In this document: positions 43,424 through 61,437 of the stretch, in pieces
How positions within the stretch are numbered: the first letter of the stretch is position 1
Layout of the letters: every line of letters starts with the position of its first letter
Assembly: GCA_934339135.1 (NCBI GenBank)
Contig: CAKRHP010000001.1
Location: forward strand, 1-64,000
DNA from: an uncultured Lachnospiraceae bacterium
GTDB lineage: Bacteria > Bacillota > Clostridia > Lachnospirales > Lachnospiraceae
Length of the DNA stretch: 64,000 bases
Direction: 5' to 3'
Notes under the pieces: generated by a model
Databases searched by the model: none
What the model was told of the DNA's origin: nothing
The model's input: only the letters and a program-made list of their open reading frames with translations
Made by a program: the position numbers and the translations under genes

Positions 43424-44005
43424 TCACAGAGATAAGTCAACGTTTTTTCCACTTTGAACGGCATCCTGCGCTGTTTTTTCTGCGGAGGAATTGTAGACTG
43501 TCATCTTTCCGGACTGACGAAAGATCTTATTGGCAATGGAACGCAGGGAAACAGAGAGATTCCCCTTAGCGGAAAGAATCTCCTCGATCTTCGCCGGACG
43601 CGCTTCACCGAATTTATCCTCATCCAGGGACAAGCTGCCATTCCCTTTTAATTCAATGCCAATGGAGGCCAGATCATCTTTATTATTTTTGATCATTTTC
43701 GTCATTTTCTTTTTTAGGGAGGTAAGCCGGCTGTCCTGACTATCCTCTGTGGACTCCATCAGATTATTGTAGCTCTTTACAAATGCTTTGGCATTTTGCA
43801 GCACCTCCACACCATGATCACTGTCATACTCCAACGAATTCAGCTTCTCTACCATTCGCTTTACCGCCTTGGCATCCGCAGAAATAATCTTTGCTTTCGG
43901 CTGGGAACCGCGGTAATCGTCCTTAATGACATTCGTATTACCCCGGTATGCATTTCTCATATAATAATTTACGTTGTGGTTTATGGAATAGGATACGGTA
44001 TCCAT
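43424..44005 (-). CDS. Small FliD-like protein
   Basis: A 193-residue protein without signal peptide. Residues ~70-165 resemble the FliD (flagellar hook-associated protein 2) C-terminal domain: FVKSYNNLMES, then DDLASIGIELKGNGSLSLDED. The same pattern occurs in the larger protein at 47186-48469, so the two are diverged relatives. No flagellar gene is close. The ATG chosen follows AGAGGTGA; the GTG three codons before lies in that site. Function unknown. Confidence 0.75.
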   Translation of the reverse strand: MDTVSYSINHNVNYYMRNAYRGNTNVIKDDYRGSQPKAKIISADAKAVKRMVEKLNSLEYDSDHGVEVLQNAKAFVKSYNNLMESTEDSQDSRLTSLKKKMTKMIKNNKDDLASIGIELKGNGSLSLDEDKFGEARPAKIEEILSAKGNLSVSLRSIANKIFRQSGKMTVYNSSAEKTAQDAVQSGKNVDLSL

Positions 44006-44124
44006 GCTCTTCACCTCTCATATATCATCAAACTTTCTTCAGGCATATTCTGTCAATATCACTATTTATTGTATCGGTATAATTCCCTGATTTCTTAAGT
44101 AAATGTCATTTCAGAAACAAATAG

Positions 44125-47185: not shown

Positions 47186-48469
47186 TTAACAATAATAGTT
47201 AAACAGCATACCGCTATATAATGATGTAATGTATGCATATCCCTTGGGCGGCTTGCCATAATCAGGATAGGATACGATCTTCTTTTCGATATAATCCATC
47301 GGATTCAGCTTGACTTCCTCGTTTTTCCTGCGAAGTCGTCCGTTTAACGGAGAATCCTTTCCCACAAGCTTCTCCATATCTCCATCCACTGCCGCCTGTG
47401 CTGCCAAAGATTCATCCAGCTTCATCCTGCCCTTTTCATCAAAGGTGATCCCGCAGGATTCCAGCTCCGACGTATAAGGCTTTAATAAGTTCTGATATTC
47501 TCTGACCAGTTTCGAATTCTGTCCTGTCTCACTACTGTATGTACTGGTGCTGTCCACCAGCTTATTGTAAGACTTTACAATACCGTAAACGCCCCCGATG
47601 ATCTTGTCGCTGTCCGGAACATAGGATATCTGTGCCGCCTGATCTCCCGGCGCATACATGGACACCTCCAGGGATCTTCCCAGCACAAATGTATTGCTTA
47701 AGGTCTCTTTCGTCTCGCCGTTCCACTCAAAGGAAGCACTGGAAGGACTGGAAACCACTTTGTTCATATTATAATAAGAAACGATTCCTCTGCCGTCTCC
47801 GTTTTCTCCCACGCGGTCCATAAAGGAGAACAGATTTCCTCCATCCGGTGAACCGGTCATATTGGACTCAATGCGCATCATAATCTTGTCTGCGCTTCTG
47901 GATACCGGTGTAGCCGTGAGACCGATCCGTGCTTTGTTGATAAAATCACAAAGCCCCTCGATCACCTCTCTGTTGGTTGCATCCTTCCGTATATTGTACT
48001 GGAAATCATAACTGTCATCACAGACAGACACCCGGAAACGATATGTACCGGCAGAAAGACCTTTCCCTGTCATATAATACTCATTGCCTGCATTGACCTG
48101 TGTGGTTGCCAGACGGTTCACACGGATCAGCGGTTCCTCCGGAAGCTGGCTGTAGTCATCACTGACAATGCGGGTTCCAATCTGTGCCTCATCGGAGGAT
48201 ACTGCCTTTTTCTGTGCAAACACACTGTCCTGCGAATCCTCTGACAGCATAGAAAGCGTATTGCTGAAGGAGATCGCCGCTTCCTTGATGTTCAATGCAT
48301 ACTCCTGCTTTGCCTGAGACAGCCGCACCAGATATACCGGGGAGGACTGCGTCATCTTTACTATATTTTTCATAACGGAGCGCAGTTCAGATGACTTATG
48401 AGTATCATATTTGGTTGCAGGTTTCTGTGCATAGTTACCGACGAAGTAATTGTAAACATTATAATCCAT
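47186..48469 (-). CDS. FliD-like (flagellar hook-associated protein 2-like) protein
   Basis: A 427-residue protein without a signal peptide. The middle resembles flagellin/FliD inner domains (GLSAGTYRFRVSV, then FINKARIGLTATPV). The end resembles the FliD C-terminal domain: GIVKSYNKLVDSTSTYS, then ELESCGITFDEKGRMKLDES. The tail ends in an unusual Tyr/Cys stretch (FNYYC). The ATG chosen has AGGAG ten bases ahead. It shares the last domain with the protein at 43424-44005. True FliD caps flagella; without neighbouring flagellar genes this may be a filament-capping or secreted adhesin-like relative. Confidence 0.78.
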   Translation of the reverse strand: MDYNVYNYFVGNYAQKPATKYDTHKSSELRSVMKNIVKMTQSSPVYLVRLSQAKQEYALNIKEAAISFSNTLSMLSEDSQDSVFAQKKAVSSDEAQIGTRIVSDDYSQLPEEPLIRVNRLATTQVNAGNEYYMTGKGLSAGTYRFRVSVCDDSYDFQYNIRKDATNREVIEGLCDFINKARIGLTATPVSRSADKIMMRIESNMTGSPDGGNLFSFMDRVGENGDGRGIVSYYNMNKVVSSPSSASFEWNGETKETLSNTFVLGRSLEVSMYAPGDQAAQISYVPDSDKIIGGVYGIVKSYNKLVDSTSTYSSETGQNSKLVREYQNLLKPYTSELESCGITFDEKGRMKLDESLAAQAAVDGDMEKLVGKDSPLNGRLRRKNEEVKLNPMDYIEKKIVSYPDYGKPPKGYAYITSLYSGMLFNYYC

Positions 48470-48521
48470 CCAAACCACTCTCCTTTACTAAATTATCAAA
48501 CCACTGTGTCAACAGCACAAC

Positions 48522-49970
48522 TTATTTTACAATTGGTGCATAACGGATGCGGATCGTTGGCAGTGCCTTTAACTCCGTATAATAATTGGTCTGCCAGTCC
48601 TCTCCCTGAGAAGGATCATTCTCTCCGCTGGCAGGCGGTGCAAAGATCTTTAACTCCATATCTGCGGCAGCACCGAGACGATTCTTGAAGAATGCGCTCA
48701 TCATATCCACACATTTAACACCGGGAGCCTTGTAGAACCACTGACCATTGAGCTCCAGCATCAGGTTCATATCTACGGTATCCTCATCGAAATATGCCTC
48801 ACAGAATACCGGATCACTGTCAAAATGAAGCGGAACCGCTACACCGTCTGCATCCTCAGAACCACCCCAGCGAAGAGTTGCAGGAAGTGCAAGCTCCTCT
48901 CCCGTCTCCATGGACGGCTGGAAAAAGTCATCATGGATGATCTCACGATAAGTATCCATCAATGGCTGCTCAATACCAACCTCAGCGTTGTTTGGATCCT
49001 CAATCTCCAGACCGAGACGTCCTCTGTCACGGAACTGGTACAGCGTGAATCCGGAAAGCCATTTCTCCTTGTCTGCCTTGAGCATCTCACAGAAGGACTT
49101 CAGCATATCCGCCTGATCATATGGTCCTGTGACATCTCCATCCGAATTGAACTCAGAAAGCACCATTGGCTTTTTGGTTCCGCCATTAACAAAGGTATAA
49201 CGCTCATAGCTCTTCTTGGCTAATGTATAAATGTCCTCTACCTTACTGCGGGAGAAGGTATCTCCACCTTCCTCAGCCACATCATACGGCCATCCCCAGT
49301 GAAGAGACATATAACGGTCAACAGATACGATATCCGCAGCTCTGGAAGCCTCTGCAAAGATATCCTCCATCTCCATCTTCTCATCATCTACGCTCTTGCA
49401 GCCGTCCAGACAGATGATCGTCTTTACATTCGGAGCCTCTTCACGGATAATCTCGCTGGCATGTGCAAAGAATGCAGCAACCTCCTCATAGCTGGCACGC
49501 TTGTTGAAGGAGAACCAGTTACCCGTTGCCTCATGGTTGATACGAAGCTGTACACGTCCAAAGGTGCGAAGATCCTGACCGATCGCTCTCAAATGCTCAT
49601 CGGAAACCTTCGGATCAATGGTCATAGTCAGAAGAACATCCTGACCATGACGGCGTACGTCGCGCATGCATGTAAAAGGCTCATCATCACGGGTACCATT
49701 GAGTCCGCCCTTATATGTAAAATAATCGTCATATGGGAAATCCCATGCAAACTGAACAGAAGGATCTGCATGAACCACACTGGCACGTCCCGGCCATCCC
49801 TCATCATTTGGATAGTAGCAGTACATCAGGTTGATTGCTCTGTGAGGTCTGCCTAACTTCTGCAGGATATAGTCCTGATCAACATACTCTCCTCTCTCAC
49901 TACCGTCTCCCAGATCAACAGCACACTGTGCCGGTCCCATATGAAGGGACTTTACTTTCAAATCACTCAT
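48522..49970 (-). CDS. Cytosolic clan GH-A-type glycoside hydrolase, possibly GH26-like
   Basis: A 482-residue enzyme with no signal peptide. The first ~340 residues look like a TIM barrel with an acid/base Glu 147 in RINHEATGNWFSF (as in the HExxxxWFW pattern of GH26) and a probable nucleophile Glu 273 in PMVLSEFNSDGD. The substrate may be an imported mannan- or glucan-like oligosaccharide. The last ~110 residues form a separate domain (MNLMLELNGQWFYK...). The family is uncertain; it could be a distant GH5, GH39 or unclassified clan A member. A promoter-like TTGTTT-18-TATAAT lies at 50034-50063. The start ATG has AAAGG 12 bases ahead. Confidence 0.65.
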   Translation of the reverse strand: MSDLKVKSLHMGPAQCAVDLGDGSERGEYVDQDYILQKLGRPHRAINLMYCYYPNDEGWPGRASVVHADPSVQFAWDFPYDDYFTYKGGLNGTRDDEPFTCMRDVRRHGQDVLLTMTIDPKVSDEHLRAIGQDLRTFGRVQLRINHEATGNWFSFNKRASYEEVAAFFAHASEIIREEAPNVKTIICLDGCKSVDDEKMEMEDIFAEASRAADIVSVDRYMSLHWGWPYDVAEEGGDTFSRSKVEDIYTLAKKSYERYTFVNGGTKKPMVLSEFNSDGDVTGPYDQADMLKSFCEMLKADKEKWLSGFTLYQFRDRGRLGLEIEDPNNAEVGIEQPLMDTYREIIHDDFFQPSMETGEELALPATLRWGGSEDADGVAVPLHFDSDPVFCEAYFDEDTVDMNLMLELNGQWFYKAPGVKCVDMMSAFFKNRLGAAADMELKIFAPPASGENDPSQGEDWQTNYYTELKALPTIRIRYAPIVK

Positions 49971-50033
49971 TATAATACCGTACCTTTCTAACACCTGCCC
50001 TGAGACAGATTGTATTTTCTCATTTCATTAAAA

Positions 50034-50125: not shown

Positions 50126-50260
50126 TCATGCCTTTTCCAGTTTTTTATTAAAATCTTCCAACGGCACCGGCTTTGCATAATAAAATCCCTGTGCAATATC
50201 ACAGCCACAATCCGATAAAAACTCCGCCTGATCCTTTGTCTCAGCCCCCTCTGCCGCGAA
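50126..50260 (-). pseudogene. C-terminal remnant of an EAL-domain gene
   Basis: On the minus strand 45 codons read as the end of an EAL phosphodiesterase: FAAEGAETKDQAEFLSDCGC continuing DIAQGFYYAKPVPLEDF and a normal stop. AEGAET matches the xEGVET loop and GCDIAQGFYYAKP the GCDxxQGYxFxKP motif. Nothing of the domain is found upstream, where the sequence turns A/T-rich (50261-50310). The rest of the gene has been deleted. It is not the end of either EAL gene at 8513-12339, whose sequences differ here. Confidence 0.85.
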
Positions 50261-50413: not shown

Positions 50414-53400
50414 TTACTTCCTGATCGTTACTTTTTTCACTTTGCTATAAGAGCCGTACACGATCCTGCCATTTGTGTCGATCCGGTATGCACATACACG
50501 AATATAATACGTTTTCTTTTTCTTAAGCTTTCGGATAGTCAGCTTATTCTTCTTCGTAAGCTTTCTTCCCGCTTTCTTAAATTTTTTGTTTGTACCATAT
50601 TGCACAAGGTATCCTTCCGCACCCTTCACTGCTTTGATCTGAATCACCAATTTTCCGGATGCCTTGTTCTTTACGGAACCAAGCGCTGCTTTTCCAACGG
50701 AAAGACCGTCGGAAGACGTCATGGTATCTTTCACAGGTTTAGCTGTTGTCCTGGTGTTTGGTGTTTTCGTCGGCTTGGCAGACGGGGTCGCTGTCGCTTT
50801 TGTTCCCGGTGTCTTTGTCGGCTTGGCAGACGGGATTACTGTCGGTCTCGCCCCCGGTGTTTTCGTCGGCTTGGCAGACGGGATTACTGTCGGACTCGCC
50901 CCCGGTGTTTTCGTCGGCTTGGCAGACGGGATTACTGTCGGACTCGCCCCCGGTGTTTTCGTCGGCTCGGCAGACGGGGTTACCGTCGGGCTCGGTCCCG
51001 GTGTTTTTACCGGCTTTTCACTTGGCTTTTCTGTCGGATCTGATACCGGTGTTTTCGTCGGCTCCGGTGTCGCTGTCGGTTCCGCATCCGGCTCCGGCGT
51101 CGGATCAATATTTGGAGTTTCTTCCCCATCCATTTCCTGCTCATCATATGTTACCTCTGCCGAAGCGTCCATGCCGATCTCATAGGTTTTATATTCCTCG
51201 CCATCCAACACAACATTGATCTTCCTGGAATCCGTACCATTGGATATGATAATACTCTTCTCCACCGGTGTCTCATATTGATTGTTCACCCGCAGTGCCG
51301 TGATCGTTCCATCCTCTACTGCCGCAGTGTATGTCAATTGTGTATCATACTGCTTGGAAGGCTTCACAATACTAAACACAGCCGAATTGTCCAACAGATT
51401 CAACTCATCCATCTGCCCCTCTCCGGTATAGGCCACTGCCTTCAGGGATACCGATACGTTATCGGATTCACTGTCAAATTCCGGCTTGTATCCAAACTGT
51501 AAAATATACTCACCACGATTAATCGCTTCCATGGCATCGCCGCCCCGGATCACAATCTGTTTCTTATCTGCGTCAAAGGAAGCAGACTCCGTAACCGGCC
51601 GCACCGTTAATGCCTCCTGATCTGCGGATGTCAGATCCAGACGGATCGTATCATCTGCTGCGAGTGCCTTCGTTCCGGCATTGCTTACAACAGTTTGTAC
51701 AATACGTTCTCCTCCGGATAATACCTCTGTCACTTCCGGACTTCCTACAACAATATCTGCTCCAAGCAAAGTCAGTCGTGCCTCCGCCTTTGCACCATTG
51801 TCGGCAACAAGGTCAAAGTTCTCGTTTTTCAGGGTGTCACCAAGAGTATAACAAAAGCTTACCTGACCCCGTTCTCCGCTTTCCAGATGGATCGGAAGTT
51901 CCGATGCCACCGTAGTAGTTCCCTGTTTTACCGTTACATTATCCATCGCCTTCCGGCCTGCATTGACGAAGGATAATGTTACATTGATGGTACTGTTTTT
52001 CTCAACATTTTGACCAAATGTGTCAGCTGATACCTCCTCAATTGCATCCGTGATCTGTTTCCGGCTGCTGATCAGCCGTACCGGTTTCTCCTCGTCCTGC
52101 GTCTGGGCAAACGGTGTATCCTCCTGCGTATCCTCCGTCTTGTCAACCGCCTGTGCGCAGGCAACCGCGGTGAATTTATCTCCATCTACTGCCACGCTGC
52201 TTCCCGTCAGCATTTCTTCTGCAGCCGCTACACTGTTCAGCGCATATTTCATGGACAGCTTTCCGGCCTGCGGATTCATATATTTCACGTAAGTATGCAT
52301 GGCAGAATCTTCACCGGCTGCCTGCCAGCAAACGGCACTGTCTTTCACCGTGCTGCCTCCTCTGGCAAAATCAAAATTCTCAGAAACTTCTCTGGAATCA
52401 TCTTTCATAGAAATATCATTTGCACTGCCATCCTTCTGATAGCCCTGTACAACCAGATAGGAATCCGTCAGCTCATCCTTTTCGTATTCAGACTGTTTCC
52501 ACGCTGCAAGGAAACTGCCTCCCTGATCACTCACATACTTCACGCGAGGCTGGGTCTCTCCTGCATTATTGCAGGTGATCCGGTTTACACTCTTCTGTAT
52601 CCCATCCTCGATCATATAAGAATAAAGCTCTCTCTCCTGCACCTTTTCACTGGTTCCCATGGCCGCTAATACCATTGCCGTGCCATCATCCCCCAGTGCC
52701 ACATCATACGCCTGTACTCCCTTAATCTCACCACGCTCTAAATATGCCGGGGTACTCCACGCATTTCCGTCGTAATAGCTGTAACACAGTTTCTTCTCGC
52801 CCATCGCATCCTTCTGAAGGGTCTCTGCATCAACCCCCGCAAGGTCATAAGAATCACTCTGCCATACCACGATTGCTTTTCCATCTCTCACAGCCACTTC
52901 CGGTGCCATATCCGCAACCTTATTGTTTGTAAGACATGTGTGCTTTCCGTTGACATACACATGGATCTCGGATGAATTGAAGGTGTCATTTAACTCCTTG
53001 TTATCCACCGATCCATCAGACATCATATCCGGATCATAATCTACGGAATCAAATGTCAGAACGTTTAAATCTCCATCCGCCGCATAATCTACGGAATTTA
53101 TAGTTTCATTTTTCCCTTCTGTTCTCCATGAGGTCAGCTCCTCCGGCTTCGTCCAGTTGCTGCCGGATTTCGTACTGACTGCCGGATTGATGCTTGTAAG
53201 GTCATCCAATGTATCCGAATATGCAAGTCCCATGCTGTCCGCATCCTCTGCAAGTACCGGAGTAATATCCGGATCAATATACTGCGTCCAGTCGATTCCC
53301 CGTTTCTTCATAGAAGAATACTGCACCACCTTACTGGTGCTCACGCTGTTCATATTGGCAAAATCAAGAAGATTCGGTCTCCCGGACGGGAATTTTGCCC

Positions 53401-56400
53401 AATCCTGATAGGTTTTGGCTTTACTGAAGCCGGTTCCGCAGATTCTCTTTTTATAGCGGACGATCAGTCCTTTGTACTCAAAGTTAAGTGCAATATCACC
53501 TGTAAAATTCAGACAGCCGCCATAATAGGTCTTTGTCTGATCCAGATCCTTAAAGGTAATGATACGGTTATCATAACCGACCGATAACTGCCCCTCCGGC
53601 CCGAACTTCAGCTTCACGATCTTTCCATCAAAACCGATACCGCCGCTGGCGCATACATACCCCTGCACTCCAACGATAATATCTGTCACAAAATCATACT
53701 CGCTTGTAATGGTAAGATTGCTGGACTGGAAGTTCATTCCGACAAACTTATCATGATATGCATTCTTTCCACTCAGGAGTGCATCAACACTTACCGAACA
53801 TCCCACTTTAATTCCATAATAGATTGGAACAAAACCGACCACCGTATTATTATTAAATCCAAATTCATATCCAAGGGATCCGGCAATGCCGCCACCGGTA
53901 TAGGTTAACACCCATTTCCCATTGATATAGTCCGCCGTACCAAATGCATAACCGGATATCTTCTTGGTGACATTATTGTCGCGAAGATCGTTGATCGTGT
54001 CCGTTACAACCGAAACCACATGATTTTCATCCAGTCCTGCTGTTCCGATTGCGATCATAAAGGTTTTCTTCATCGGATCTTTTGTGTCCTGATATGCAAT
54101 CTTCATTGGCAATACCTTTGGAAGATCAAAAGAGAAATTACGGTTAATAATCTCCCCTGCTGAGATTGTCGGGGTCTGCACCGAACCACAAAAATTCATC
54201 TCTGTCGGTTTCGCCGGTGTTCCTATATTTGAAACATTGCTCACGGTAAATCCACCCGGCATATCCATAAGTAATGCTCCACTTGCTGCCTTTACCTGAA
54301 ACTGTGGTGTATACTGTCCGGTCTTTGTATTTTTCGTATTGACCTCAAATACCGTTTTCACCCATTCATATTTCATTCCTTCGACCGAGGCATCTGTCTC
54401 AGAAACCGGCTGGATCTCTTTCCCGTTGATCGTCATTGTCAGCGAATGCTTCTGTGATGCCTTAGAATACACATAAATGGTTTTTTTGGCACCTTTATTC
54501 AGAACAAAATTTCGTATAGGTGCACCACCCACATCTTTGATCATCAGAGCGCAGTCTGTATTGACTAAAGTTGCCGATGCTTTCATCATAACCGTTGTTC
54601 CCGTATTTTTCTGAACGCCGCCCCGATAGACCGGATAGCGTACAAGCTGCGCCGCGAACGAATCGTCGTCTGACGCAATCTCCGTCACAACATCTGCATC
54701 GGTAAGCTCTGACACACCACTGTAATCTAATGCGATTGTTTGAGCCTCTACTGCCTTGTCTCTTTTGATCGTTTTGGACACACTGGAGATCACATTTCCC
54801 TCCAGATCAACAATAAATGACCGGATCAATATATTTGTATTTTTGACCTTTCGAAACGAATCGGTCAATGTCAAATTCTGCCGGTATCTGGAAGACACCT
54901 CATAATTATTGATAGGATACGCTCCTGTTCCCTCGCCGCTTTCCATATCTGTAAGAGGTACCGTCAACTGACATGTGCCACAGGTCACACCAATCTCGAC
55001 ATCCGTTGAAGATGGTTTCCAGACGATCGCATCTCCGTTGGAAAGCTGTTTTACTTTTTCTGCTGCACTGTTCGAAACATCCCAGGTAACTTTCTTATCC
55101 GATTCCGTTTTTGCCTCAAAGCTTGCTTTATCACTATCTGACAAATAAGACTTATAATTATCTGAGCTTATCGGTCTGATAATATAAAGCTGGTCCTTGA
55201 GGGTCTTAACATAAACACTGATCCGGTATATCTGGCCACTTGTTTCATCCGTTACGGTCATATATGCAAAACCGTCCGTCTTGCCGGTCATAGTAACCTT
55301 AGACCCCTCCACGGAGCACTCGAGAATACTCTCATCCGAAGACTTAACGCTAAATACGTCCTCCTCGCCTGCACCGCCTTTAATATCCATATAACGGGTC
55401 ATGACTGCCTGATTCAGCACACTGTAAAACGCATCGGCATCATCCGCCGCCTCCAAGGCATCTGAGATCAACGTCTCATTGGAGAGTGTGTATACCTTCG
55501 GAAGCACTGTTCCATTCTCTTCCAGAGAAAGCGGTGATCTGTCTGTCTTCTCCCAGATCGCATACATCGTCAGAGACTGCTCTCCTTCATAACGTGCGCC
55601 GGAAGCATACATCTTGCCGGAGCCATCCTTCCTGGTGTTCCATCCAACAAAGGTGTAACCGCTTCTCTGCGGCTCCTCCATTGTAAGCACAGAATGATAC
55701 AGATCCTCTTTCCGCTGTGTATCCGGCATTCCGGATACTTCATCTGTCGTATTGGCATTATAATTCAGGGCATATTCTCCCTCTAACATTTCCATATCTG
55801 AAAATGTATCCACCGAATCCATCACATCTGCAGTGATCCCATTTGTAACAGCACCGGACCACGCAATATAATCACCCTTTTTGTAACCACGGTTACAGGA
55901 AATATAATATCCAAAGCCATTCTTGCTGACAAACTGTACACCGTTTTCATCATACTTCGTAACCTTTCCCTGACAGATCAGTCCCTCAATGCCATTCTTA
56001 TAGGTCGCTTTCATATACTTTTGGCCACTTGTTGTCAAACACACATTCCCAGAATCACCGACTTTAGAGTAAGCCGGCAAATTTTCAGATGTACCGGCCA
56101 CCACAGGTGTTCCGTCCTTTTCAAACATGAATAACGCAAACGGATACGAAGAATCTCCGCTGTACCGGAATGCAAAATACCGGTCCGTGACCTGTGCTTC
56201 CTTGTACTGATGCCCTGTGGACGCATTCGCTGTTCCCCAGGATGCATCATATGGAAGCCCATTGATCCGATTCGCTGATGTGACATTGTCAAAGAACTGA
56301 TCTTTCCCAAGTTTCACGCGGAAAAGACCGGATTCATAATAGCGTTCCCACACAGCATACAGGGTAAGAACACTGTCTTTTGTATAAACGCCACCCGCCT

Positions 56401-57268
56401 CATAAGAATCTCCTGAACCGTCTTCTTTCGTATTCCAGCCTTTAAAACGATACCCTGTTCGCACCGGTTTCTTCTCCGATAACGTAAGTGCCGTTCCCTG
56501 CTTTTTCACCTGTTCCTCCGGCATATTTCTAACGGAATCCCCGTTCGCCTGGTACATAACCGCATACTCTCCGGAGGTCAGCTGATTGGAGGAATACTTA
56601 TCCATGCCTGCAAGCTCTTCCATCGTCACATCGGTATCTGCATTCACCCATGTGATCTTTTCTCCCACGCCACGCCCCTGATTTCCACTCAGATAGTAAC
56701 CAAAGCCGTTGGAGCTGCTGAAGTACAATCCATTTTCATCTGCCTTGCCCATGGCACAAAGCGCCATGACTCCCTCAATACCATCCGTATACGTATCCTT
56801 CATATACTTTTTCGAAGCGGTTGTCAGACAAACATTATCTGATTTACCAATTTTGGAACTGGCAAGCAGATTTCCGGATCTGCCGGCAACTACCGGTGTT
56901 CCATCATTTTCGTACAGACATAATGCGATCGGATAATCCGAATCGCCGGAGTATTTCAATACAAAATAACGATCCTTCATGATCGTTGTCTTCAACTGAT
57001 GTCCGCCTGACGAATGCGCAATTCCCCAGGATGCATCGTAAGGCAGTGAATTCAGTCTGCTTGTACTCATTACATAATCAAACAGCTGATCAATACCATA
57101 CCGTCCGGCAAATACACCGGTATAATATTCTCCCTCATGCACCACCTGCGTCTCTGCAGAGGCTGTTCCCACCGTAATTCCCTGAAAAGATGTTGACGAA
57201 AAAACCATAGCGATCGTCAGCACACCACAGAAAATACGTTTTCTTACCTTGTGTAGATTCCATTTCAT
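50414..57268 (-). CDS. Giant secreted multidomain protein with InlB-type repeats and Fn3 tail
   Basis: A 2284-residue exported protein. Signal peptide residues 1-38 (cut near GTASA). Residues ~46-308 and ~311-573 are two copies of a unit of about 265 residues: an unrecognised ~170-residue domain (QLFDYVMSTSRLNSLPYDAS; QFFDNVTSANRINGLPYDAS) capped by an InlB B/Listeria-Bacteroides-type repeat (GYRFKGWNTKEDGSG; GYTFVGWNTRKDGSG). The long middle is beta-rich with Ig-like, propeller-like (LYSYMIEDG region) and CARDB-like parts. About residues 2050-2187 are a Thr/Pro/Lys linker with 16-residue repeats, and the last ~97 residues an Fn3-like domain. No LPxTG or SLH anchor is seen. GGAGGGG precedes the ATG. 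Likely an adhesin or matrix/glycan-binding protein. Confidence 0.85.
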   Translation of the reverse strand: MKWNLHKVRKRIFCGVLTIAMVFSSTSFQGITVGTASAETQVVHEGEYYTGVFAGRYGIDQLFDYVMSTSRLNSLPYDASWGIAHSSGGHQLKTTIMKDRYFVLKYSGDSDYPIALCLYENDGTPVVAGRSGNLLASSKIGKSDNVCLTTASKKYMKDTYTDGIEGVMALCAMGKADENGLYFSSSNGFGYYLSGNQGRGVGEKITWVNADTDVTMEELAGMDKYSSNQLTSGEYAVMYQANGDSVRNMPEEQVKKQGTALTLSEKKPVRTGYRFKGWNTKEDGSGDSYEAGGVYTKDSVLTLYAVWERYYESGLFRVKLGKDQFFDNVTSANRINGLPYDASWGTANASTGHQYKEAQVTDRYFAFRYSGDSSYPFALFMFEKDGTPVVAGTSENLPAYSKVGDSGNVCLTTSGQKYMKATYKNGIEGLICQGKVTKYDENGVQFVSKNGFGYYISCNRGYKKGDYIAWSGAVTNGITADVMDSVDTFSDMEMLEGEYALNYNANTTDEVSGMPDTQRKEDLYHSVLTMEEPQRSGYTFVGWNTRKDGSGKMYASGARYEGEQSLTMYAIWEKTDRSPLSLEENGTVLPKVYTLSNETLISDALEAADDADAFYSVLNQAVMTRYMDIKGGAGEEDVFSVKSSDESILECSVEGSKVTMTGKTDGFAYMTVTDETSGQIYRISVYVKTLKDQLYIIRPISSDNYKSYLSDSDKASFEAKTESDKKVTWDVSNSAAEKVKQLSNGDAIVWKPSSTDVEIGVTCGTCQLTVPLTDMESGEGTGAYPINNYEVSSRYRQNLTLTDSFRKVKNTNILIRSFIVDLEGNVISSVSKTIKRDKAVEAQTIALDYSGVSELTDADVVTEIASDDDSFAAQLVRYPVYRGGVQKNTGTTVMMKASATLVNTDCALMIKDVGGAPIRNFVLNKGAKKTIYVYSKASQKHSLTMTINGKEIQPVSETDASVEGMKYEWVKTVFEVNTKNTKTGQYTPQFQVKAASGALLMDMPGGFTVSNVSNIGTPAKPTEMNFCGSVQTPTISAGEIINRNFSFDLPKVLPMKIAYQDTKDPMKKTFMIAIGTAGLDENHVVSVVTDTINDLRDNNVTKKISGYAFGTADYINGKWVLTYTGGGIAGSLGYEFGFNNNTVVGFVPIYYGIKVGCSVSVDALLSGKNAYHDKFVGMNFQSSNLTITSEYDFVTDIIVGVQGYVCASGGIGFDGKIVKLKFGPEGQLSVGYDNRIITFKDLDQTKTYYGGCLNFTGDIALNFEYKGLIVRYKKRICGTGFSKAKTYQDWAKFPSGRPNLLDFANMNSVSTSKVVQYSSMKKRGIDWTQYIDPDITPVLAEDADSMGLAYSDTLDDLTSINPAVSTKSGSNWTKPEELTSWRTEGKNETINSVDYAADGDLNVLTFDSVDYDPDMMSDGSVDNKELNDTFNSSEIHVYVNGKHTCLTNNKVADMAPEVAVRDGKAIVVWQSDSYDLAGVDAETLQKDAMGEKKLCYSYYDGNAWSTPAYLERGEIKGVQAYDVALGDDGTAMVLAAMGTSEKVQERELYSYMIEDGIQKSVNRITCNNAGETQPRVKYVSDQGGSFLAAWKQSEYEKDELTDSYLVVQGYQKDGSANDISMKDDSREVSENFDFARGGSTVKDSAVCWQAAGEDSAMHTYVKYMNPQAGKLSMKYALNSVAAAEEMLTGSSVAVDGDKFTAVACAQAVDKTEDTQEDTPFAQTQDEEKPVRLISSRKQITDAIEEVSADTFGQNVEKNSTINVTLSFVNAGRKAMDNVTVKQGTTTVASELPIHLESGERGQVSFCYTLGDTLKNENFDLVADNGAKAEARLTLLGADIVVGSPEVTEVLSGGERIVQTVVSNAGTKALAADDTIRLDLTSADQEALTVRPVTESASFDADKKQIVIRGGDAMEAINRGEYILQFGYKPEFDSESDNVSVSLKAVAYTGEGQMDELNLLDNSAVFSIVKPSKQYDTQLTYTAAVEDGTITALRVNNQYETPVEKSIIISNGTDSRKINVVLDGEEYKTYEIGMDASAEVTYDEQEMDGEETPNIDPTPEPDAEPTATPEPTKTPVSDPTEKPSEKPVKTPGPSPTVTPSAEPTKTPGASPTVIPSAKPTKTPGASPTVIPSAKPTKTPGARPTVIPSAKPTKTPGTKATATPSAKPTKTPNTRTTAKPVKDTMTSSDGLSVGKAALGSVKNKASGKLVIQIKAVKGAEGYLVQYGTNKKFKKAGRKLTKKNKLTIRKLKKKKTYYIRVCAYRIDTNGRIVYGSYSKVKKVTIRK
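50760..51060 (-). repeat. 48-base tandem repeat coding a Thr/Pro linker
   Basis: Near-identical 48-base units coding PTVIPSAKPTKTPGAS-type 16-residue repeats inside the giant protein gene, about five copies with decaying ends. Units around 50830-50960 are almost identical, so copy number may vary by slippage. Confidence 0.88.
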
Positions 57269-57415
57269 AGAACCCCTCCTTTTCCTGTTTTTCGATAAAT
57301 ATAGGGTTAAAATATATTATATCAGTTTTCGGAGTTGGGGTTTCTAAATAGAGTGAATGGTTAAAATATGGTGTGAATAGCACACCGTTTCAGAAAAAAC
57401 AGATTCCACAAAAAA

Positions 57416-57438: not shown

Positions 57439-57450
57439 TCTCATCCGCAA

Positions 57451-57534
57451 TGCGGAAGAAGGGACTTGAACCCTCACGTCGTTGCCAACACTAGATCCTT
57501 AGTCTAGCCTGTCTGCCAATTCCAGCACTTCCGC
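57451..57534 (-). tRNA. tRNA-Leu(TAA)
   Basis: Class II tRNA on the minus strand: acceptor GCGGAAG paired with CTTCCGC, discriminator A, long variable arm, T-arm GGTTCAAGTCC. The anticodon stem CTAGA/TCTAG closes loop CTAAGGA, giving anticodon TAA for leucine UUA/UUG. CCA is not encoded. Confidence 0.95.
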
Positions 57535-57698
57535 ATGTTTCGCTCTGCACTTTTGCGCCGCGAACAAATAAAATATTATCACTTGTATTTCTATTTGTCA
57601 ACAGTTTTTTTTAATTTTTGAAATATTTTTTAAAATAATCCCATTTTTGCGACGCATCTGTTACAATAAAACTACTATAGAAAGAGAGGAGGATCTCC

Positions 57699-58929: not shown

Positions 58930-61437
58930 ATGAGAAAAAATTACAAATCAATTTCCTGTCTGCTGACGGCAGCTCTGATTCTGACCGCAGCTCCGTTCCA
59001 TGCAGACGCACTTACAAAACCAAAACTGAACAAGAAAAAACTCACCATGAGGGTCGGCCAGAAAAAGAAACTGGCCATCAAAAACAAAAAAGCGTCCCAG
59101 ATCAAAAAGATCAAATTTACCGTCAAAAAGAAAAATATAGCACGGGTCAATAAAAAAGGCGTCGTAACCGCTTTGAACGAAGGAAACACGAAGCTGGTCT
59201 GTAAAGTGACCTTAAAAAACAAAAAAACATATAAGCTCAACTGTAAAATCACAGTGAAAGAGGCAGAAAGCACTGTCTCCACGGCAACACCGGGAGCCTC
59301 CGCTGTTGCCGGCACTCCTGCAGCAAGTACGGCCGCCTCTGTAAAACCGGGTTCTCCGTCTATGAAACCGACCGTTTCCGGCACTCCGGATACTTCCAAG
59401 GCTCCGGCTGACACGGCAAAGCCTGACAACACTCCGGATACTTCCAAGACCCCGGCTGACACGGCAAAGCCTGACAACACTCCGGATACTTCCAAGACCC
59501 CGGCCGACACGGCAAAGCCTGTCAAAACTCCGGCAGCTTCCAAGGCTCCGGCTGACACGGCAAAGCCTGTCAACACTCCGGCGGCTTCCAAGGCTCCGGC
59601 TGATACCGCAAAGCCTGACAACACTCCGGCCGCTTCCAATACTCCGGCTGGCACCGCAAAGCCTGACAACACTCCGGATACTTCCAAGACTCCGGCGGAC
59701 ACCGCAAAGCCTGACAACACTCCGGATACTTCCAAGACTCCGGCGGACACCGCAAAGCCTGACAACACTCCGGTGGCTTCTAAAACTCCGGCATCTACCG
59801 ACACGCCGGATACACCAGGTACACCGTCTCCTTCTTTCCAGGGACCACATCTGTCTGCCAATGGCATTTTGACCTCCGATAATGGCGTGATGCGTACCGG
59901 AATAGATGCCTATGACATTGTAAAGGAAATGGGTGCCGGCACAAACCTTGGCAATACTTTGGAGTCCTGTGGTACGTGGATCGGCACCTCCAGCACTTCC
60001 AATTACGAAACCGCATGGGGACAGCCTGTCACCACGCAGGAAATGATCGATGGGATGAAGGCCGCCGGCTTTGACTCCATTCGTATTCCGGTTGCATGGA
60101 GCAATATGATGGCAGACGACGGAACCTACACCATCAACGAAAAGTATTTTAACCGTGTAGAGACCGTGTTAAACTATGCGTTAAATGCAGATATGTATGT
60201 CATTATCAACATCCACTTTGACAGTGGCTGGTGGGCACGCTTTGGTTCTAAAACGGAGCAGGAACGCAAGGATGCCATGACAAAATATAAAACGATGTGG
60301 ACTCAGATTGCCAATCGTTTTCAGGAATACTCCGACCGTCTGATCTTTGAGTCCGCCAACGAAGAATTGGGTACCCGTTTAAACAGCACCGATGATTACA
60401 AAGGCTCCGGTTATTACGCAAAGGATGATCTGGATTCCCTTTATAAGCTGACAAACGAGATCAACCAGACCTTCGTGGATATCGTTCGTTCGACCGGTGG
60501 CAACAATGCCAGGCGTTTCCTTCTGATCGCCGGTTACGATACCGATATCTCAAAGACCTGTGATCTGAGATACAAAATGCCGTCGGATACGATTGATTCC
60601 CATCTAATGGTTTCCATCCATTATTATTCTCCTGCCACCTACTGTATTGCAGATAATCCGAATAACTCCTGGGGATATAAGGAAAGCTGGGGAACTGATG
60701 AAGATATCAAAACACTTCAGAGCGAGCTGTCCCAGATGCGTATCTCTTTCATTAATAAAGGGTATCCTGTTATCATTGGAGAATATGGTGTAACAGATAC
60801 AAAGATCAGTGAAAATAATTTTGTACGTAAAAAAGGCCGCGATCTGTTCTTCCGTACCGTCTGCGAATACGCATTAGACAACAATATGTGTCCGGTACTC
60901 TGGGACTGCAGTCAGGTTTTTGACCGCAGAAGCCTCACCATAACAAACGAGGCAGAAAAAGCATTATATACAGAAATGAATGAAAAGGCACATAATTCCA
61001 AGCTGGTAAAACCTTCCATTTCTGATGGCTGTTACCACTGGACAGGCACCGTCGCAAACAGTAACTGGAGTGCTTCAAGTGCATCTGCAAGCGATCCAAA
61101 CTCCACATTTACCATTTCCACAACCGGCGGCTGCTTTACCATCTCCGGCATTGACTGGTCCGACTTCAAACATCCGGTTTTAAAGCTGACCTGCAAAGAG
61201 AGCTCCGGATCTGCCCTGTTCCGTCTGGCAAACCAGGTCGATACCAGCAACCAGTACTGGCATCATCTTTATGACAACGGCACCGGTGTCATATCCGAAA
61301 AAAACATTTCCTCCGGAAGTACCATTTCCATTAATATTCCGCTGGATGATATGACATCAACCCAGAACCTGTATTTTGCACTGGTAAACAGCTCTGATTT
61401 CAATGGAACCATTTCGATCGAAGTCGTGGAAAACTAA
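58930..61437 (+). CDS. Secreted GH5 endoglucanase-like enzyme with Ig-like domain and repeat linker
   Basis: An 835-residue exported enzyme. Signal peptide residues 1-27 (…FHADA). Residues ~28-112 are a Lys-rich Big_2-like Ig domain, ~115-295 a Thr/Pro/Ala linker with 16-residue repeats, ~300-690 a GH5 barrel and ~695-835 a beta-rich C-terminal domain likely binding carbohydrate. The catalytic acid is Glu 478 (LIFESANEEL) and the nucleophile Glu 618 (VIIGEYGV). FDSIRIPVAWS is typical of GH5. It probably cuts beta-1,4-glucans or related hemicellulose outside the cell. No cell-wall sorting signal is present; the very basic Ig domain may bind the wall. AGAGAGGATC lies before the ATG. Confidence 0.9.
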   Translation: MRKNYKSISCLLTAALILTAAPFHADALTKPKLNKKKLTMRVGQKKKLAIKNKKASQIKKIKFTVKKKNIARVNKKGVVTALNEGNTKLVCKVTLKNKKTYKLNCKITVKEAESTVSTATPGASAVAGTPAASTAASVKPGSPSMKPTVSGTPDTSKAPADTAKPDNTPDTSKTPADTAKPDNTPDTSKTPADTAKPVKTPAASKAPADTAKPVNTPAASKAPADTAKPDNTPAASNTPAGTAKPDNTPDTSKTPADTAKPDNTPDTSKTPADTAKPDNTPVASKTPASTDTPDTPGTPSPSFQGPHLSANGILTSDNGVMRTGIDAYDIVKEMGAGTNLGNTLESCGTWIGTSSTSNYETAWGQPVTTQEMIDGMKAAGFDSIRIPVAWSNMMADDGTYTINEKYFNRVETVLNYALNADMYVIINIHFDSGWWARFGSKTEQERKDAMTKYKTMWTQIANRFQEYSDRLIFESANEELGTRLNSTDDYKGSGYYAKDDLDSLYKLTNEINQTFVDIVRSTGGNNARRFLLIAGYDTDISKTCDLRYKMPSDTIDSHLMVSIHYYSPATYCIADNPNNSWGYKESWGTDEDIKTLQSELSQMRISFINKGYPVIIGEYGVTDTKISENNFVRKKGRDLFFRTVCEYALDNNMCPVLWDCSQVFDRRSLTITNEAEKALYTEMNEKAHNSKLVKPSISDGCYHWTGTVANSNWSASSASASDPNSTFTISTTGGCFTISGIDWSDFKHPVLKLTCKESSGSALFRLANQVDTSNQYWHHLYDNGTGVISEKNISSGSTISINIPLDDMTSTQNLYFALVNSSDFNGTISIEVVEN
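59389..59812 (+). repeat. 48-base tandem repeat coding a Thr/Pro/Ala linker
   Basis: About eight and a half copies of a 48-base unit coding DTSKTPADTAKPDNTP-like 16-residue repeats in the GH5 gene. Neighbouring copies (59405-59500 and 59665-59760) are nearly identical, suggesting recent duplication. Confidence 0.92.

Follow-up and report, generated by a model that had tools for sequence, protein, structure and literature searches.

The closest described counterparts of the protein treated here are internalin B of Listeria and other surface proteins with InlB B-repeats, which it resembles as an exported Gram-positive protein whose B-repeats stand beside a candidate recognition module. We studied it in a stretch of 64,000 nucleotides from an uncultured Lachnospiraceae bacterium (positions 1 to 64,000 of contig CAKRHP010000001.1, assembly GCA_934339135.1; hereafter the window), in which one gene on the minus strand (50414–57268) encodes an apparently secreted multidomain protein of 2284 amino acids (aa) with two copies, d1 and d2, of one domain near its N-terminus. 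A B-repeat in the PDB (2y5p) matches this protein with an E-value of 0.0021. Unlike internalin B, the window protein has no leucine-rich repeat or GW family among its Pfam hits up to E 10 and no C-terminal LPXTG-like signal, and the domain adjoining its repeats falls into no family found. The protein is of a known kind, the multidomain wall-tethered proteins with InlB repeats, while our searches support a new family for the duplicated domain, whose fold may be new as well.

Two other groups of proteins resemble it in part. The SLH proteins P0028, L002 and the one encoded in genome G887 also have this domain beside InlB repeats, but differ in having one domain copy instead of two and an SLH anchor, and the middles of P0028 and L002 are unrelated to that of the window protein. 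The giant surface proteins P0046, L012 and L013 share its long-stranded region, and P0046 its propeller and CARDB-like region as well; the new domain was, however, found neither in P0046 nor in the genomes that encode L012 and L013, and the N-termini of all three differ from that of the window protein.

As the best explanation we put forward, at about an even chance, a wall-tethered surface rod that presents a paired recognition tip, a reading suggested by the position of the domain, the sharing of modules and the retention of both copies. A broader proposal, which we hold tentatively and with rather less than even confidence, is that the domain has an undescribed fold and is a mobile recognition domain that Bacillota have repeatedly placed at the outermost tip of wall-anchored proteins not related in other respects, and that in one lineage a single duplication, of which both copies persist, made the tip of a 2200-residue rod bivalent or dual in specificity.

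The duplicated domain

The open reading frame (ORF) given in the preliminary description was confirmed: like all features of the protein below it lies on the minus strand, it starts with ATG, and an AGGAGG ribosome-binding site can be read just upstream (57275–57280). Its layout is no artefact, as it is kept by seven relatives with 52–82% identity over 92–100% of the query. Residues 1–38 (57155–57268) resemble a signal peptide, with the cleavage site placed by eye, in agreement with the secretion proposed earlier, and mean pairwise identity over residues 1–45 is 39% among the eight family members. The domain copy d1 spans residues 49–233 (56570–57124; alignment, profile and AlphaFold2) and d2 residues 312–497 (55778–56335; alignment and profile). 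Each is followed by an InlB B-repeat of the Flg_new/InlB family PF09479, the first at residues 235–306 (56351–56566; Pfam) and the second at residues 498–574 (55547–55777; Pfam and self-alignment), the two stretches reaching 81 bits against a cut-off of 27. A sub-threshold Pfam match of the protein to RdfA (E 0.0037) was taken for chance. The twofold pairing of domain and B-repeat in units of about 265 residues, as first described, is borne out by the alignment of residues 46–310 with 311–575 (50% identity over 264 aa, E 2.9e-91), a tandem duplication, and the four motifs listed at that time (PYDASWG, DRYF.xYSGDS, GTPVVAG and NGFGYY) all occur in both copies; the domain itself exists as claimed, with a size nearer 185 residues than the 170 or so first estimated.

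In a tree of 22 domain copies, the nine d1 copies form one clade (support 99/99) and the nine d2 copies another (98/96), and the eight family members have a mean identity of 69% within d1 and 65% within d2, against 43% between the two. Because d1 and d2 are each monophyletic with these identities, a single duplication most likely preceded the spread of the family, which has retained both copies since. They are among the better-conserved parts of the protein, the corresponding mean pairwise identities being 46–55% for the spacer that follows (residues 580–1010) and 71% for the long-stranded region.

All 21 domain copies scanned were compared with Pfam and with NCBIfam at E-values up to 1, where the best matches (E 0.07 and 0.0034, respectively) each came from a single member; no family matched more than 4 of the 21 copies and none reached E 0.001, with curated cut-offs given just for the first member (13.1 bits against 200). 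Among PDB sequences, profiles built from 7 and from 21 copies had no significant match (best E 0.32 and 0.4), and a search of PHROGs with the whole protein found nothing at the domain residues. A new domain family is supported by these sequence comparisons, since the Pfam, NCBIfam, PHROGs and PDB-profile searches give nothing below E 0.001. The preliminary description had proposed a profile search that might refute its claim and a structure prediction: in the former no known family claims the duplicated region below that value, and the latter, run for d1, gave a confident AlphaFold2 model (pLDDT 92.6, pTM 0.91). Foldseek with this model returned no match in the PDB (best E 0.77) and no viral match (best E 0.97). 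The domain is possibly a new fold, for which the model makes it a candidate, though an unproven one. It is uncommon for a confidently predicted domain to have no match in the families and structures searched. A literature search, with most subscription journals outside its scope, showed no title on the protein or its domain among those listed.

Distribution, placement and probable wall attachment

A homologue search over 5.8 billion proteins, restricted to the 7993 candidates with the most words in common with the query and to lengths of 0.55–1.75 times its own, yielded 81 proteins, the window protein included. A profile of 16 family copies finds the domain in 9 of these, namely the window protein, the seven relatives of the same layout, and P0028, which has one copy near its C-terminus (165 bits); the other 72 are without it, and nearly all of them have InlB repeats in their Pfam column. 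Twelve more proteins, reading as fragments of the same kinds, came from a search at domain length (102–325 aa). A two-pattern scan of genome contigs (84,980 species as described) gave two loci: L001, the orthologue in Lachnoclostridium sp. UBA2905 (genome G001), which points to a Lachnospiraceae-like host of the window gene, and L002, a 1994-residue SLH protein of a Tissierellales bacterium (genome G002). This count is a lower bound, since the patterns would miss a real member, that of G887, which reads NDFGYYIAG. Scanning the genome contigs with the whole protein gave four pattern matches and no relative.

Six-frame genome searches, in which each centre genome counts as a match and the genomes are samples of larger groups, found the domain in 1 of 10 genomes of the genus of G001 (G001 itself) and in 2 of 392 of its order (G001 itself and G887). 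The matches in the class and the family of G002 (1/391 and 1/8) are both G002 itself. The family of G001 gave 2/397, G001 itself and G035, but the latter match (E 5.9e-4) was judged to be chance and is not counted: two ORFs there reach 200 aa, and both belong to other kinds, the longer one looking by eye like a solute-binding protein. The domain is rare and patchy. No relative of it was confirmed in IMG/VR, searched by two short patterns, and the plasmids searched held no match to the query; a viral or phage origin was rejected, the sole match to a phage record falling on the InlB-repeat part of the query.

In all three architectures that carry the domain it adjoins InlB B-repeats. The G887 protein, whose gene consists of two overlapping frames that were read apart, begins with a signal-peptide-like stretch, the domain and an InlB repeat and carries three SLH stretches at its C-terminal end, while L002 and P0028 are arranged the other way round, with SLH N-terminal and the domain C-terminal. 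The window family has the domain pair N-terminal, opposite a basic Fn3-like tail. The domain is opposite the anchor in both architectures with an identified (SLH) anchor, and the third would fit the same anchor-distal placement if the tail is an anchor. Profiles of the other regions of the window family gave no significant match in P0028 or L002. Judged by these comparisons, the domain thus appears to behave as a mobile module, because the domain and the InlB repeats are common to these proteins and the shaft is not. Such a steady anchor-distal position leads to a testable guess at the purpose of the domain. A common origin of the middle of P0028 or L002 with the long-stranded region was considered and is unsupported (HMM, i.e. 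hidden Markov model, E 0.18 and 0.64; hhalign E 0.37).

The tail covers residues 2191–2284 (50417–50698; module stretch 50414–50725) and has 29 Lys/Arg and 2 Asp/Glu in 94 residues. The C-terminal position of an Fn3 tail in the preliminary description stands, and its Pfam match falls below threshold (E 0.017, 15.8 bits, cut-off 25). The tail is matched at 11 places in G001, and within the family of that genome it was found in 26 of 100 genomes, with up to 24 matches per genome. Among the 42 ORFs at the 41 loci returned (L015–L055, not all matches; among them, as L015, the window protein's orthologue), it ends 15 or fewer residues before the stop in 39 and 17 residues before it in one. Some of these tail carriers look glycosidase-like by eye. 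As the window protein is without SLH and without a C-terminal sortase-type signal, it is plausible that the tail serves in wall retention, and the tail is a candidate for a general wall-retention domain; its recurrence would then be of use in predicting which of the secreted enzymes in this group remain cell-bound.

A proposed recognition tip and its rivals

If the window protein is a rod with a recognition tip, its signal peptide would export it, the basic Fn3-like tail would hold it at the cell wall and the Pro/Thr linker would cross the wall. The CARDB-like, propeller, long-stranded and Ig-like parts would make up a shaft, probably extended in shape, and the domain pair, alternating with the InlB B-repeats, would lie farthest out and bind an external target, most likely a glycan, a glycoprotein or another surface, with the two copies providing avidity or two related specificities. 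Of the new ligand-binding domain suggested in the preliminary description, the new domain holds, and ligand binding finds indirect support in the outer-end place of the domain in wall-anchored relatives and in the retention of both copies. If the domain binds host or dietary glycans, it would give these bacteria a new way to hold on to their surroundings.

Several observations weigh against this reading. Wall attachment of the window protein is putative, since SLH is absent among its Pfam hits to E 10 and there is no C-terminal sortase signal, NPQAG (residue 1665) being the sole match to the pattern [LNI]P.[TAS][GAS]; hydrophobicity beyond residue 60 peaks in the window at residue 1143, away from the C-terminus. 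The tail is internal in 2 of the 42 ORFs (L032 and L050, where it is followed by at least 500 and 410 residues, respectively), and the C-terminus of P0028 is possibly cut by its contig. The best structural match of the propeller is the enzyme CylK, and lectins and glycosidases rank high too, with Sec12, S9 peptidases and integrin propellers only a few Z units from them; because such non-glycan propellers score alike, the propeller was dropped as evidence for glycan binding. Conserved positions of the domain fall in loops at 24/44 against 108/191 overall (Fisher p 0.86), so that loop enrichment was rejected and no binding site is identified, and the conserved polar residues could equally well be catalytic.

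This last point belongs to an alternative that we consider unlikely, in which the domain is an enzyme acting on an external polymer and presented on a stalk. It would account for the near-invariant polar and aromatic residues (D78, S80, W81, S87, H90, Q91, D109, N145, Y160 and N187), and a secreted GH5-containing protein is encoded nearby; yet the histidine, kept in 19 of 20 rows, is replaced in one d1 copy (P0003), the matches to enzyme families are weak and confined to single members (phosphoglycerate mutase, E 0.0034; crotonyl-CoA reductase, 0.0089; beta-lactamase, 0.19), and among PDB sequences a chitinase chain is matched only at E 0.4. Slightly less probable again is a structural or self-associating unit by which adjacent rods, or wall polymers of the cell itself, are joined into a surface layer. 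The presence of SLH proteins among the carriers and the alternation of the domain with InlB repeats would suit such a unit, whereas its rarity would not (beyond the centre genomes 0/396, one chance match set aside, 1/391 and 0/390), nor would its place at or next to the protein end in the carriers read, which is unlike that of a repeated layer unit. A stronger contender, to which we give somewhat less than an even chance, is that d1 and d2 have a highly diverged known fold missed by Foldseek, for example a small beta-barrel of the PH/EVH1-like or OB-like type. It concerns the fold and not the function and is compatible with the recognition tip as with the other readings, so the confidences expressed here do not sum to one.

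The putative shaft and the neighbouring genes

The long beta-rich region of the preliminary description is not a single region, being made up of several distinct parts that include a well-predicted beta-propeller. Behind the second B-repeat lies the spacer (residues 580–1010; 54239–55531), probably Ig/Big-like, where Pfam gives nothing above cut-off in the window protein; in the relative P0005, residues 634–684 match T2SS-T3SS_pil_N at 23.3 bits against a cut-off of 23, and MG2 is sub-threshold. The long-stranded beta region (residues 1040–1300; 53369–54151), delimited by profiles and a low-confidence model, is common to giant surface proteins of other architecture. A homologue search with residues 1011–1315 returned the same eight proteins only, and the genome searches gave more. 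The region occurs together with differing ends: SLH in P0046, an RPKTG-type end in L013 (1875–7199, minus strand, in its own genome) and an Fn3/Big-like tail in L012 (2454–13082, minus strand, likewise), the last two by eye. A model of residues 1014–1742 was good for the propeller and poor for the long-stranded part, and because of the latter we claim no fold for that region.

The propeller fold is assigned to residues 1326–1742 (52043–53293) from the predicted model and structural comparison. It has about 7–13% identity to the propellers of the lectins and glycosidases PLL, CV39L and BT3686 and of CylK, Sec12 and S9 peptidases, and is separate from the duplicated domain. The pattern [ST].D.G..W, which we take to be the form of the Asp-box, has no match in residues 1314–1742. 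Residues 1745–2045 (51134–52036) form a region that we take to be CARDB/Ig-like, without a Pfam hit; it is partly common to P0046 (E 1e-7). The repeat linker noted earlier was also found, as a Pro/Thr/Lys stretch (residues 2046–2190; 50699–51133) partly encoded by a 48-bp tandem array.

Immediately past the end of the gene, a stretch of about 38 residues (50126–50245, minus strand) matches the C-terminus of an EAL domain (24.3 bits in Pfam, E 2.3e-5, where the cut-off is 31.3); with no gene attached, this remnant is the trace of a lost gene. A glycosidase-like protein, by eye, of 490 residues (48522–49994, minus strand) has no Pfam match above cut-off, no NCBIfam match and, at E 0.1, no match among PDB sequences. 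Similarity to the C-terminal part of the flagellar cap protein FliD is seen in two ORFs (43424–44014 and 47186–48478, minus strand; 27.9 bits against 25.4, and 19.1 bits, sub-threshold), which flank genes that by eye resemble rplA, rplK and nusG. Directly upstream of the gene for the 2284-residue protein, on the same strand, is a tRNA-Leu gene (57450–57535); insertion of an island at this gene was considered and set aside, as the window holds no second copy of the tRNA 3' end. By eye, the neighbours of the window gene differ from those of the L001 orthologue. The nearby GH5 protein, of cellulase type (58930–61437, plus strand), has a basic, Big_2-like N-terminus (sub-threshold) and a Pro/Thr linker encoded by a 48-bp repeat in 8.6 copies, equal in period to the repeat behind the linker of the 2284-residue protein.
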